From Ideonella dechloratans (GTDB lineage Bacteria; Pseudomonadota; Gammaproteobacteria; Burkholderiales; Burkholderiaceae_C), in assembly GCF_021049305.1 (NCBI RefSeq), contig NZ_CP088081.1:3596001-3660000 (forward strand): a stretch of 64,000 bases of DNA, written 5' to 3'. Under the pieces are notes generated by a model. It was given only the letters and a program-made list of their open reading frames with translations. It had not been told where the DNA came from and searched no databases. The translations under genes were made by a program, and so were the position numbers. How positions within the stretch are numbered: position 1 is the first letter of the stretch; each line of letters opens with the position of its first letter. Of the stretch, positions 1-4,616 are shown in pieces.

Positions 1-336
1 GAGGTACAGGAGCTTCACCCGCACCTCGTTGGCAAGTTCCGCGTACAGCTCGGGATGCACGAAGTAGGTCTCACCCTCGTCCTTCAGCGACAGGGTCAGC
101 GCCTGCATGCTCCACTCCGCGCCGGCCCGCACGCGGAAGAACTGCTGGGGGCTGGGCTTGCGGACAGGGACGGTGGTGATGATGCGCTTGACGCCCGCGA
201 GCTGCGTGAAGTTCTGGGTCAAGGCCAGCTTGGTCAGGTCGAGGTCGTTCCCGTAGCCGCTGGCGGGGGCGTTGAAGTGCGGCATGTCGCCTGCGTTGGC
301 GAAGGTCGGGGTGGTGTTGGCGTTGGTGTCGGACAT
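1..336 (-). CDS. Mobile-element-associated hypothetical protein (3' end outside window)
   Basis: An open frame of 112 codons runs from an ATG at 336 leftwards off the window, so only the N-terminal part is present. The ATG is preceded by GGAG. The product begins MSDTNANTTPTFANAG and contains VPVRKPSPQQFFRV at about residues 58-71, then alternating hydrophobic segments. I recall this VPVRKP..F.RV signature from a family of uncharacterised proteins common on integrative elements and plasmids. No biochemical function is known to me and no catalytic motif is visible. Its position inside the low-G+C island supports a mobile-element origin. The frame is clear; the family link is from memory and moderate in certainty. 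Confidence 0.7.
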   Translation of the reverse strand, partial: MSDTNANTTPTFANAGDMPHFNAPASGYGNDLDLTKLALTQNFTQLAGVKRIITTVPVRKPSPQQFFRVRAGAEWSMQALTLSLKDEGETYFVHPELYAELANEVRVKLLYL

Positions 337-533
337 ACAGGTCTCCATGAAGGGTGGGATCCAGCGAGGCTGGGGTTCAACAGGTCTGCGACGGGTGTTG
401 CTCCTCGGCGCAGGTGGCTGTTGAGACCTGTAGCGACAGGATGTTCTCTGCGATTTTTCGAGGCCATGCCGACCACCTCCCGTTGACGCAAGGTGTGCGC
501 ACGGACCTGTTGCGCCGCGCCACAGCGACCTGT
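337..533. repeat. Cluster of five GACCTGT heptamers in the 337-669 spacer
   Basis: The divergent spacer 337-669 holds no convincing gene. Five exact copies of GACCTGT lie in its first 197 bases: three on the plus strand (425-431, 504-510, 527-533) and two on the minus strand (337-343, 380-386). Two are parts of longer inverted repeats: CCTGT-N4-ACAGG at 427-440 and CCACAG-N4-CTGTGG at 520-535. Such a cluster between divergent genes could be a repressor operator array or an iteron-like region. Function is inference only. From 534 to 669 I see nothing specific. Confidence 0.45.
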
Positions 534-669
534 GGCGGTGCGCCGCACCTGATCCATCTAGTCAATAGCTCTATGAACGAAAATGGAGGGAGGCCATGTG
601 GCCCACGTTCCAACCACTTCGGCTACAGCACTCGGATCCGGCCGCGTGTGCGGCCAGATCGCTCATCCG

Positions 670-1452
670 ATGCTCAGAGTCATTTCCGCCAACCTGAACG
701 GCGTTCGTTCCGCTTCAACGAAGGGGTTCTTCGACTGGATGGCCCAGCAGGATGCCGACTTCGTTTGCGTGCAGGAGCTCAAGGCGCAGGAGTCCGACAT
801 GGCGCCGGGCATGCTGGCGCCGACCGGCTACCAGGGCTACTTCCACTACGCCGAGAAGAAGGGTTACAGCGGCGTCGGCATCTACGCGCGGCATCCGCCT
901 CTGAAGGTGGTGGTCGGCTTGGGCGTTCCGGAGATCGACGCCGAGGGGCGCTACATCGAGTTGGTGTACGACCGCCTCTCGGTGGTGTCGGTCTACCTGC
1001 CGTCCGGATCCAGCGGCGAACACCGTCAGGCCGCCAAGTTCGACTTCATGGAGCACTTCTATCGGCACTTGGGCGGCCTGGTCGCATGCGGGCGCGAGGT
1101 GGTGATCTGCGGCGACTGGAACATCGCGCACAAGGAAGCTGACCTGAAGAACTGGAAGGGCAACCTGAAGAACTCGGGCTTCCTCCCGGAGGAGCGGGCT
1201 TGGCTGACGCGGGTGTTCGACGAACTTGGCTGGGTGGACACGTATCGTCGGCTAGAACCTGACGCAACTGAGTCCGGATACACATGGTGGAGCAATCGCG
1301 GGCAGGCTTGGGCGAAGAACGTTGGATGGCGAATCGACTATCAGATTTGTTCCAGACCGCTAGCCTATTGCGCGCGGAGTGCTTCAATCTACAAGACGGA
1401 GCGGTTTAGTGACCACGCTCCGCTCATTATTGAATACGACTTCAGTTTCTAA
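670..1452 (+). CDS. xth: Exodeoxyribonuclease III, complete island-borne copy
   Basis: Predicted 260-residue exonuclease III / AP endonuclease of base excision repair, close to the usual 255-270 residues. Family motifs are visible: N-terminal ANLNGVRSA, VQELKAQ with the metal-binding Glu, GDWNIAHKE (Asp and Asn of the active site), GWRIDYQ (Asp223) and the C-terminal SDHAP (Asp248-His249). The ATG at 670 matches the normal N-terminus; an in-frame upstream ATG at 583 would add 29 unrelated residues. By eye it is strongly similar to the truncated chromosomal copy at 3933-4616 but lies in the opposite orientation, and its last ~130 bases are much more A+T-rich. It probably supplies the function lost from the interrupted host gene, which is an inference. 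Confidence 0.9.
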   Translation: MLRVISANLNGVRSASTKGFFDWMAQQDADFVCVQELKAQESDMAPGMLAPTGYQGYFHYAEKKGYSGVGIYARHPPLKVVVGLGVPEIDAEGRYIELVYDRLSVVSVYLPSGSSGEHRQAAKFDFMEHFYRHLGGLVACGREVVICGDWNIAHKEADLKNWKGNLKNSGFLPEERAWLTRVFDELGWVDTYRRLEPDATESGYTWWSNRGQAWAKNVGWRIDYQICSRPLAYCARSASIYKTERFSDHAPLIIEYDFSF

Positions 1453-1472
1453 TTTTTCGCCACCTTCCCGCG

Positions 1473-2147
1473 TCACATGTCAATGATCTTGCGAAGCCTA
1501 TCTAGAACGATCGGCTTCCGGTGAGATTCACCACCAAGAAGCCAGTCGAGACGGTCATCAAATGTCTGATCCAGTGATATGGCCTCAAACTCGTCTGCAA
1601 CGTATTCGCGTAATTCAAGTGGGGCGAGCCTGACCTCTTCGCAGATTCCCGGCCTGCCATCCAGAACAGTAACAATATCTTCCATGTCATGGTGGAGATA
1701 ATCGCCCGCACCGCGTGATTTGAATGACTCCAGTTTAGTGGCGATGAATACTGGAGCGCTAATCACCCGAATGCTTCTGCCGCTTGGTAGTAGATGTCGT
1801 TCGGCTTGTCTTGCCGCCATCTCGTACCAACTGTTTGAAAAACCAAGCACTTGAGGGTCGGTTGTCATCACATCTAGCTTGATCTCACCCCTCTTCCAGC
1901 GACAGATGACTTCGTCGGACTCCACAAAGCCGCGCAATTTGAGCTCCTCACAGAACTCATAGTAGGAGGATCTGGGTGTTACTTCTGTTAGTAGATCGAT
2001 GTCACCAGTCGCCCTAACAGGTGGGCGAGACATGTCGGTAATGAGAAGCCCTACGGCACAGCCTCCGACCAAAACCAGCTCGTCCATAAGGCTGTCGAGA
2101 ACGCTTGCGACGAGTTCCACGCCCGCGACATTTGGATCCTTGATCAT
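1473..2147 (-). CDS. Nucleotidyltransferase (AbiEii/MNT-like), putative toxin
   Basis: 224 residues with the DNA-polymerase-beta-type nucleotidyltransferase signature: Gly28-Gly29 in LVLVGGCAVG, Asp49-Ile-Asp51 in TGDIDLLTE, and a later acidic strand IKLDVMTTD. These residues normally hold the two metals. Enzymes of this group transfer nucleotides to tRNA or proteins, and several are toxins of AbiE- or MNT/HEPN-type toxin-antitoxin systems. It begins with an ATG that overlaps the stop of the upstream gene (ATGA, 2144-2147), so translation is probably coupled. G+C is lower than in the chromosome. It could alternatively be a non-toxic modifying enzyme; the toxin role is inferred from the fold and gene pairing. 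Confidence 0.75.
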   Translation of the reverse strand: MIKDPNVAGVELVASVLDSLMDELVLVGGCAVGLLITDMSRPPVRATGDIDLLTEVTPRSSYYEFCEELKLRGFVESDEVICRWKRGEIKLDVMTTDPQVLGFSNSWYEMAARQAERHLLPSGRSIRVISAPVFIATKLESFKSRGAGDYLHHDMEDIVTVLDGRPGICEEVRLAPLELREYVADEFEAISLDQTFDDRLDWLLGGESHRKPIVLDRLRKIIDM

Positions 2148-2668
2148 CGGATATATCCCTGCAATTCGCTTCTTGCAATCTCTCGCTCTCTGGCGCTCCC
2201 TGCACGTATTGCGTCGAGTATTGCGGCGACCTCATAGAAGCGAGGGTTTCTTTTCGCCGCTGTCGGGATGGATGGGTAAAGCGGGCACAGCGACATTCCG
2301 CGATCGGTACCTTCTGGGTCAGGCCAGACTATTGGGGGGGTGTCGCTTGTGGGGAAGTGCGTTTCCAGCGGTCCTGTGAAGGCACTCGTGCGCATACCTT
2401 GGGCTATTTGCCCAAATATGGGTGGATACACGTATCGTATTCCATGTGTCACAAACTCCATGATGGCTGATCTATTTGGCTGGAGTTCGCCAAAATCCTT
2501 ATTAATCAGTCCGCAAAGCATGCATCGCTGCACTGCCGCGTGAGCTTCGGATGTAGATATGGCGAGTGCTTGAGAAAACCTAGCAAACGAGAACCCAATA
2601 GGATCATCTGTACACGCCAGCCAAACTGACGCGACCACATCTTGCGGCTTGAGTGATATTTGGCGCAT
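2144..2668 (-). CDS. Winged-helix-like partner protein of the nucleotidyltransferase, putative antitoxin
   Basis: 174 residues from the ATG at 2668, which has AAGG eight bases upstream. The open frame extends to 2878, but the extra N-terminus has no good ribosome binding site. The N-terminal third (MRQISLKPQDVVASVWLA, later ALAISTSEAHAAVQRCMLCG) reads as a helix-turn-helix. The C-terminal part has conserved-looking VTHGIRYVYPP, WPDPEGTDRG and LCPLYPSIP blocks. I recognise this as a widespread uncharacterised family usually encoded directly before a nucleotidyltransferase. Translational coupling through ATGA with the next gene supports an antitoxin or autoregulator role, but this is not shown by the sequence alone. 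Confidence 0.65.
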   Translation of the reverse strand: MRQISLKPQDVVASVWLACTDDPIGFSFARFSQALAISTSEAHAAVQRCMLCGLINKDFGELQPNRSAIMEFVTHGIRYVYPPIFGQIAQGMRTSAFTGPLETHFPTSDTPPIVWPDPEGTDRGMSLCPLYPSIPTAAKRNPRFYEVAAILDAIRAGSAREREIARSELQGYIR

Positions 2669-3095
2669 GAGATGTACCTTCTGCTGCTGTTCTTCGTTCG
2701 GGAATGGAGAATACCCCATCTTTATGAAGACTGTGTGGAAGAGGGACGTACCTCCGTTGGTGTGCACTGGTCCACCCAGGTGGATCATGGAGGCATACAG
2801 ATCCAGCATTCGGGAACCGCGAATTCTGCGCAAGACTTTAGGCACGATGGGCGTAGGCCGGGATGCAAGGTGACACATTGAGGCAACACGTAGACCTCTA
2901 GGTGAGTAGCAGTTGATCTTTCTGATGCGCCACTGTTGTTCGTCATTCGAGGATAGCGAACACGCAGATAGAAGCGATGGCAGATGCGTTTGCAGTCAAT
3001 GACTTAGCCGGCTATCCGTTCATGACGTCGCATACGAAGCTATACGCATGTGGTAAGCTCCTGCTGAACGTAAGCTTGAGGTGTCGGGAGCACAG
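2669..3095. other. Divergent intergenic region of the island
   Basis: No convincing gene; G+C is clearly below that of the chromosome. A possible promoter for the rightward gene is TTCATG (3019-3024) and TATACG (3041-3046) with a 16-base spacer, about 50 bases before the start at 3096. A TAGCCGGCTA palindrome lies just upstream, at 3005-3014. On the minus strand the segment up to 2878 continues the open frame of the HTH gene, and I regard that as leader sequence. Confidence 0.3.
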
Positions 3096-3893
3096 ATGGA
3101 TGTTGTCCGTAAGAAGAGCCCGCGAGCTCCGTCGATCGCGCTCGACGAGGCGCTCAATCGCGCGCTGCTGGCCTATGACAAGGATCGAACCCACGCTGCG
3201 CCTGCGGAGGTCGTTGCTCAGAACCTAGGCTACAAGTCTGCCAACAACGGCAGCGCCTTGGCTGCCATGGCGAGCCTTCGCTACTATGGGCTGCTAGAGC
3301 GCCCGAGGGAGGGCATGCTGGCGGTAGCGAAGGCTGTTGAGCAGTACAAGTTCGCTCCAGATGAGTCACAGCGCAAAGCGCTTCTGCGCAAATTTCTGCT
3401 AGCGCCAAACGTGTTTGCGGAGCTCCTCGAGCTCTACCGTGATGGCTTACCGTCAGACGCAACGATCCGGTACGAGCTCATCAACCGTGGCTTCTTGCCA
3501 GCGCCTGCCGAGACATGTGCGGCAGTGTTCCGAAAGTCAGTCGACTTCGTGGACTACTTTGGCCAGCCAGGCGCGCTTGAGCCTACTGATGCGGACGACG
3601 AAGGCGCGAACATAGAAGATGGTCCTCGCTCCAGGGCGTCAAACTTGGACGAATCCGACGAGGCAGTGCAACAGCCAACGGTCGCGAGCTTCCGCAGCGC
3701 GACACCAAGACAGAGTGCTTCGCCTTTACCACCACTCGGCGGCGAAGATGTGGACAGCATTCCCGTTCGCTTGACAGGAGGGCGACGAGCTTGGCTAGTC
3801 GTCCCGCATCGGCTGTACGACGCGGACAAGGTTCGCCTGAAAGCACAAATTGATCTACTGCTCACGGTAGAAGAGGAACACGGCAATAGCTAG
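3096..3893 (+). CDS. Hypothetical protein next to the island junction
   Basis: 265 residues of unknown function. I chose the ATG at 3096 because GGGAG lies five bases before it; a GTG at 3081 would add five residues. The N-terminal ~140 residues are helical and resemble a winged-helix module (SIALDEALNRALLAY, then GSALAAMASLRYYGLLERP). This is followed by an acidic, Ser/Pro-rich linker (about residues 160-215) and a short C-terminal block, RLTGGRRAWLVVPHRLYDAD. No catalytic motif is seen. It ends 40 bases before the truncated xth gene, so it is the outermost gene of the island here. A regulatory or DNA-binding role is only a guess. Confidence 0.65.
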   Translation: MDVVRKKSPRAPSIALDEALNRALLAYDKDRTHAAPAEVVAQNLGYKSANNGSALAAMASLRYYGLLERPREGMLAVAKAVEQYKFAPDESQRKALLRKFLLAPNVFAELLELYRDGLPSDATIRYELINRGFLPAPAETCAAVFRKSVDFVDYFGQPGALEPTDADDEGANIEDGPRSRASNLDESDEAVQQPTVASFRSATPRQSASPLPPLGGEDVDSIPVRLTGGRRAWLVVPHRLYDADKVRLKAQIDLLLTVEEEHGNS

Positions 3894-3929
3894 CGTTTCG
3901 CGACGTCTTGTGTAGGTTTTTTGTGCAAG

Positions 3930-3950
3930 TGGCTAGTCCAGGCGCCAGCC
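3930..3950. other. Island-chromosome junction inside xth (candidate attachment site)
   Basis: Read on the minus strand, xth coding sequence runs normally through GGCTGGCGCCTGGAC and then meets TAG and unrelated, A+T-richer sequence with an A6 run. Intact family members continue Asp-Tyr-Gln at this point, as the island copy does. The break therefore marks the island end, with GACTA as a possible part of the crossover core. The matching repeat would lie to the left of the window. No integrase gene is visible in this part. Confidence 0.55.
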
Positions 3951-4616
3951 CACGTTCTTCGCGTAGGCCTGGCCGCGGTTGCTCCACCAGGTGTAGGCCT
4001 CGCCGGTGGTCTCGGGGTGCAGGCGACGGTAGACGTCCACCACCCCGACCTCGTCCAGCAGCCGGGTCATCCAGGCCCGTTCCTCGGGCAGGAAACCGCT
4101 GTTCTTCTGGTTGCCCTTCCAGTTCTTCAGGTCGATTTCCTTGTGGGCGATGTTCACGTCGCCGACCAGGATGAACTCGCGCTGGCCCTTGAGCGCGTGC
4201 AGGTGCGGGTAGACCACGTCCAGGAAGCGGAACTTGGCCTGCTGGCGCTCCTCGCCCGAAGAGCCGCTGGGGAAGTAGCAGCTGATGATGCTGAGTTGGC
4301 GTCCGGGCTTGTCGAAGCGCAACTCGACATAGCGGCCTTCGGCATCGAACTCCGGCTCGCCCAGGCCGATGACCACGTCGCTGGGCTCGTGGCGGCTGTA
4401 CACCCCGACACCGGAGTAGCCCTTCTTCTCGGCATAGTGGAAGTGCCCCGCCATGCCGGCGACCCTGTCGTATTTCCCCTGCACGTCGGGCGCCTGGGCC
4501 TTGACTTCCTGCACCCCCATACAATCGGGCGCGATACTCTCCGTCCAGGGCATGAAGCCCTTGCTGGCCGCCGATCGGATGCCGTTCAGGTTGAGTGTGA
4601 CCAGTCTGAATCCCAT
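3933..4616 (-). pseudogene. xth: Chromosomal exodeoxyribonuclease III truncated at its 3' end
   Basis: 227 residues that match exonuclease III from the N-terminus (MGFRLVTLNLNGIRSA) through VQEVKAQ, YFHYAEKKGYSG, GDVNIAHKE and NRGQAYAKNVGWRLD. A TAG then ends the frame. About 35 residues are missing, including the C-terminal SDHAP segment whose His is the catalytic base in this family, so the product should be inactive. The gene is divergent from pyrE with only 13 bases between starts, the usual chromosomal arrangement in related bacteria, so this is the native copy. The truncation coincides with the island junction. A complete homolog sits at 670-1452. Confidence 0.85.

Follow-up and report, generated by a model that had tools for sequence, protein, structure and literature searches.

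A family of large serine recombinase elements that splits the exonuclease III gene and carries a complete second xth

Introduction

According to the available sections of PMC5704250, most IMEs that use a tyrosine recombinase keep their target intact by means of a repeat, and those that use a serine recombinase disrupt genes that are dispensable for the host. In the islands described in the accessible part of PMC4482086, island sequence replaces the 5′ end of dusA. Durrant et al. 2022 (PMC10083194) reported, in the portion of the article available, that many clusters of large serine recombinases (LSRs) each use a single conserved gene as their target.

The element described here, which lies in the exonuclease III gene (xth) of Ideonella dechloratans, belongs to a set of 13 that resemble the serine-recombinase IMEs, as portrayed in those sections of PMC5704250, in having an LSR, a short shared core and an insertion point within a protein-coding gene; the MobA/MobL relaxase of three of them adds to the likeness. 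Unlike those IMEs, again as far as the same sections describe them, the xth elements hit a conserved repair gene and bring a full copy of it. With the islands of dusA (PMC4482086) and of tRNA genes (PMC4383910), judged from the available parts of both articles, they share a conserved site and, presumably in the case of xth, no net loss of function; however, those islands restore one gene at the junction, whereas the xth elements leave the host gene broken and add a separate, diverged gene. The xth LSR family also has one conserved target gene, like the clusters in the available portion of PMC10083194, the main text of which, as distinct from its supplements, contains no match for ‘exonuclease’, ‘exodeoxyribonuclease’ or ‘xth’. 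Synthetic Cleave-and-Rescue gene drives, in the descriptions available, likewise combine a broken host gene with a rescue copy on the element, but they are engineered nuclease drives, whereas the xth elements are natural bacterial insertions in which recoding of the rescue copy is at most suggestive. Among the matches listed in a literature search of titles and abstract beginnings (subscription papers, preprints and supplements aside), there was no xth serving as LSR target and no element with a full copy of its target; within the titles and abstract beginnings of these matches, we found no description in print of an xth-targeting LSR family.

Results

The analysed window is a stretch of 64,000 nucleotides of the I. 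dechloratans genome (G000:C1:3596001-3660000); coordinates without a contig prefix refer to it. The 5′ fragment of the host xth (exodeoxyribonuclease III/AP endonuclease) occupies 3933–4616 on the minus strand. It encodes 227 aa, ends in ...NVGWRLD followed by TAG, and lacks the C-terminal SDHAP segment, which we take to include the catalytic histidine. The initial annotation had noted that the chromosomal gene stops after Arg-Leu-Asp without this segment, as is confirmed here, and had interpreted the break as the boundary of an island inserted in xth. The latter interpretation is borne out by the lost 3′ end of the gene, which tblastn placed about 10.6 kb leftward (G000:C1:3589321-3589208) in a 206-kb target made up of the first 6 kb of the window and the 200 kb to its left, and by relatives in which xth is contiguous. 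The proposal to look leftward for an integrase as well as for the missing fragment also proved fruitful: an LSR of 549 aa (G000:C1:3589352-3591001, outside the window) was found adjoining the 3′ fragment. The positions of fragment and LSR, some 10.6 kb left of the break, give an element of about that size, the right-hand part of which fills 1–3933; the rest, including the LSR and the other end (at about G000:C1:3589317), is situated to the left of the window. The end inside the host xth is a hybrid attachment site (3908–3961), at a position identical in 13/13 elements, with an inferred crossover dinucleotide TA at 3934–3935 around which the attP arms form a dyad. A direct repeat of the GGCTGGCGCCTGGAC region had been anticipated but is absent, the two ends of the element having just TAGTC in common.

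The insertion splits xth at active-site codons, GWR[L/I]D^Y. The site is empty, with a contiguous single xth, in three genomes (G008, G010 and G004; 97, 96 and 94% identity to G000, respectively), and each of the 15 other genomes of the genus contains a single strong match to xth at E ≤ 1e-117. Both empty and occupied sites are present among the genomes compared. A sequencing or assembly error at 3933 is very unlikely, since the same codon pair is split in 12 further elements.

A complete xth, hereafter the spare, is located at 670–1452 on the plus strand, its direction of transcription pointing to the element end at 3934. Its product of 260 aa is 62% identical to the host enzyme over the part that they share; both match Exo_endo_phos. 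The spare is a TIGR00633 exodeoxyribonuclease III (248 bits against a cut-off of 99) and retains seven motifs (NLNG, QE.KAQ, PSGSS, GD.NIAH, WWSNRG, GWR.D and SDHAP), in agreement with the earlier description of a complete, related xth with its active-site residues at this position. The same motifs are present in 13/13 spares, and we assume that the catalytic residues fall within them. By sequence, the nearest solved structure is 2jc5, which we take to be the Neisseria NApe enzyme. A distant Exo_endo_phos paralogue of 29% identity (G000:C1:2533463-2534101), which we presume may be NExo-like, was found in 15/16 genomes of the genus, and its persistence in the host implies that loss of xth may be tolerable.

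A candidate anti-phage pair, PDC-M21A/B (1473–2878), sits between the spare and the element end. It is made up of matches to the candidate defence models PDC-M21B (1473–2147, minus strand, with a sub-threshold match to AbiEii) and PDC-M21A (2144–2878, minus strand). An ORF of 270 aa with no family found (3081–3893, plus strand) has a relative in element G418; the 5′ part of a 215-aa ORF, also with no family found (1–348, minus strand), has one in element G411. Left of the window the element encodes a PolA-like DNA polymerase (L043:5956-7839, equivalent to G000:C1:3593956-3595839, minus strand), which has a relative in G411 and matches PADLOC RTasPolA (7.5e-28) and phage DNA polymerases; DUF6573 is present on the element as well. 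Among the 10 proteins of the G000 element that were scanned there was neither a structural PHROG, as would be looked for in a prophage, nor a relaxase family.

In the other elements, a scan of ten chosen proteins (two without a Pfam family) revealed a MobA/MobL relaxase in G414, G416 and G418, an ArdC-type anti-restriction protein in G410, cytosine methylases in G399 and G413, a D5-type primase in G412 and a helicase with a Snf2-like domain in G411; an ORF pair of G399 can be read as a putative type III restriction system.

The recombinase itself is of the large serine type, with Resolvase, Recombinase and zinc-ribbon domains in one protein of about 500 aa: PF00239 and PF07508 exceed their cut-offs, and PF13408 falls slightly under it (25.1 bits, cut-off 25.3). 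In 399 genomes of the bacterial family, relatives at E ≤ 1e-60 occur in five, namely G000, G399 (68% identity) and three genomes at 38–40%. A protein search in which 8,000 candidates were scored returned 162 relatives, and the best 120 of these show a gap in identity between 47% and 40%, with about 114 relatives at 47% or above. A search of 84,980 species genomes with a 38-row alignment via two peptide patterns, a non-exhaustive procedure that gives a minimum of 12 loci, yielded 12, one of which is that of G399; together with G000 this makes 13 elements. In a class-wide sample of 369 genomes the LSR family was seen only in G000. The other hosts are Hydrogenophaga, Rhodoferax (2), Curvibacter (G399), Pseudogulbenkiania, Sulfuritalea, Propionivibrio, Acidovorax (3), Paracidovorax and Dechloromonas; the four hosts whose orders were checked are betaproteobacterial (Neisseriales, Rhodocyclales, Nitrosomonadales and Burkholderiales).

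The possibility that the LSR resides on phages or plasmids was considered and rejected: phages and plasmids gave no match at E ≤ 1e-50, viral contigs gave none with a single-protein query, and with the alignment as query they gave only distant LSRs of 27–39% identity. In the LSR tree the G000 protein groups with those of G399 and G409–G411 (support 86/98, with a long-branch warning); it is 70–71% identical to three of these, versus 58% to that of G412. Three outgroup LSRs in the same bacterial family (L054, L055 and L056; 37–38% identity) have targets other than xth; at L054, inspection of the ORFs of the locus did not lead to recognition of the target gene.

The LSR of G399 borders on an xth that is interrupted at the codon used in G000, and the element, of 24.6 kb, ends at the lost xth 3′ fragment, with a complete xth immediately before that fragment. 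The LSR adjoins an xth fragment broken at this place in 12/12 loci, and the splitting of the same codon pair together with a second, intact xth is seen in 13/13 elements, which represent one recombinase family and not 13 independent trials. Accordingly, a truncated and a complete close xth occur together in each of G000, G399 and the 11 new genomes. The initial annotation had asked if a second xth accompanies every split locus; the answer is yes for all 13, with the qualification that eight elements are not complete on one contig (the complete ones being G000, G399, G414, G416 and G419). Its suggestion that carrying a full replacement copy is a strategy unlike restoration of the 3′ end holds in all 13 elements of the LSR family. 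The spare lies on the element side of an end in 12 of the 13 cases and on the LSR’s contig in G411. From the coordinates, all 13 spares read toward the LSR-distal end, from which they are separated by about 20–130 bp in six elements, 1.0–3.3 kb in five and 11.7 kb in G409.

When ORFs of at least 120 codons were clustered, the LSR and xth were the only families common to all 13 elements, the next family being present in six; since eight of the 13 are incomplete on one contig, another universal gene could be missed there. In all five complete elements, likewise, only these two families are shared. Across the bacterial family, xth was found at E ≤ 1e-60 in 381/399 genomes, with two copies in five. 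Outside the genomes with this LSR, a second close xth occurs in 3/397: the second copy of G335 is cut by a contig end, both copies of G193 are partial, and in G287 (L144, L147), whose assembly shows 4% contamination, both genes are complete, a pair that represents either contamination or another element.

The attachment core was located by a script with patterns that require TA, and the elements split xth at GA[CT]-TA in 13/13 cases. All elements have TA in common between attP and attB, some of them together with as many as three adjacent bases, and we infer that TA is the crossover dinucleotide. The reconstructed attP has strong dyad symmetry about TA (15.4/20 half-site matches; shuffles, mean 5.7 and maximum 7.4), whereas attB is not symmetric (6.2/20 versus 6.7 in shuffles). 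All 13 attP/attB pairs are of the LSR type, with a short shared core, a partly symmetric attP and a hybrid site at each end. Nine elements are inserted in one orientation and four in the other, and the sister LSRs of G409 and G410 have opposite orientations; no tracking of the LSR tree by orientation was seen, 196 of 500 shuffles being as low. The use of both orientations would follow from the palindromic nature of the TA core. The host xth fragment stops at the core in 11/13 elements and reads on in G415 and G417 into unrelated sequence without the SDHAP segment; in-frame rebuilding of xth by element sequence, as expected of elements that restore the end of their target, is absent. In G413, G414 and G419 the last codons and the stop of the spare lie inside the attP arm (L143:4915-4950, L066:19320-19355 and L112:5785-5820, respectively).

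In a tree of 47 xth proteins the spares fall into three clades, one of eight (96/97), one of G413, G414 and G419 (99/97) and one of G000 with G412 (100/95). That a spare is a recent duplicate of its own host’s xth is unsupported by this tree, the host gene being sister to the spare in 0/13 cases; the nearest case is the G412 host gene, which is sister to the G000 and G412 spare pair (96/86). For G000, then, the LSR is placed beside those of G399 and G409–G411 but the spare beside the one from G412 (Pseudogulbenkiania), so element lineages may have exchanged their spares.

The arginine codon inside the attachment site is AGR in 8/13 spares and CGN in 13/13 hosts and 39/39 references, and at the other eight conserved arginine columns of the spares AGR occurs in at most 2/13; on the tree, owing to kinship, the eight AGR cases need at least two changes. 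In the spares of G414 and G419, leucine replaces tyrosine and the TA core is gone. Recoding of the window around the site as a whole was not established: the fraction of codon differences at identical residues is 0.58 there against a mean of 0.55, and 51/652, 82/622 and 24/592 windows (widths 20, 26 and 32) are equally diverged. Recoding of the spare’s attachment site is, on these alignments, suggestive.

Between spares, dN/dS is 0.04–0.08 in four pairs, three of which have dS of 1.4–2.0, near saturation, two further pairs being saturated. The truncated host xth shows no clear decay (dN/dS 0.09–0.18 versus 0.12–0.15 among its relatives), which implies either that the insertion is recent or that the test is weak. 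Endonuclease IV (nfo; TIGR00587, E ≤ 1e-20) was found in 0/13 element genomes and 0/150 family genomes, with 6/14 control genomes positive. Since this enzyme was not found, xth is probably the main AP endonuclease of these hosts, though in G000 the 29%-identical paralogue remains. Very probably the spare is expressed and stands in for the host's own enzyme.

Discussion

We regard it as very likely that these are ‘insert-and-replace’ elements, in which an LSR-family element splits xth and the full, diverged spare is a core module that takes over its function. The LSR would integrate at the active-site codons GWR[L/I]D^Y; integration would cut xth and remove its C-terminal SDHAP segment; and the element-borne xth, read toward the LSR-distal end, would then supply the AP-endonuclease function. 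The benefit would presumably be that a highly conserved attB becomes available to the element while the host is harmed little.

The spare might instead be general cargo that aids the element itself, through repair during transfer or replication, its match with the target being secondary. Such a role would fit the DNA-processing genes that the elements carry (the PolA-like polymerase of G000, MobA/MobL in three and the D5-type primase of G412). Nevertheless, the rarity of a second close xth in family genomes that lack the LSR (3/397) means that xth is not common cargo there, and xth is absent from the 20-kb stretches around the three nearest outgroup LSR loci, three loci only; we consider this explanation improbable. 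Slightly less probable still is that an ancestor acquired the spare on a single occasion as a chance duplicate, which has merely been passed on since. The small number of spare clades would agree with a single capture, which might also leave a stop codon within the attP arm, as in G413, G414 and G419. Yet the LSR and spare trees seem discordant while none of the 13 spares is missing or broken, and the low dN/dS of the spares also speaks against mere inheritance of a chance passenger.

The initial annotation suggested that the spare may be a selectable anti-loss device; in this (addiction) proposal the host would become dependent on the element’s AP endonuclease so that imprecise deletion is selected against. 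It accords with the observation that, once inserted, the element carries the sole intact close xth, and that no nfo was found. Precise excision, however, rejoins the host xth, so that loss by the element’s own route is unpenalized and the spare could penalize only imprecise deletion or its own loss. We hold this proposal to be rather unlikely; it is compatible with insert-and-replace and does not exclude it. Somewhat less doubtful, and still tentative, is the idea of a natural ‘insert-and-rescue’ selfish element, whose LSR would destroy the only close xth of the host and whose rescue copy would be recoded against attack. The AGR codons and the loss of the TA core from two spares speak for it; the unexceptional divergence of the wider window, and the kinship that reduces the eight AGR cases to at least two changes, speak against it. 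If this were true, a nearly universal target would become usable, hosts would depend on the element and a second insertion would be excluded.

In the available parts of PMC5704250 and PMC4482086, the known ways to limit the harm of insertion are the use of dispensable target genes and the rebuilding of the end of the entered gene. Returning to the insert-and-replace reading, the breaking of a conserved repair gene together with a whole replacement beside the recombinase would be a third solution. The search rule that it suggests is to look for islands with an intact homologue of the gene that they split. The family also yields a set of LSRs with mapped attP and attB sites, and the palindromic core of these sites leads one to expect integration either way round. 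Such a solution would extend the target sites usable by these elements to the active-site codons of conserved genes, and the dependence of the host on the element would become testable.
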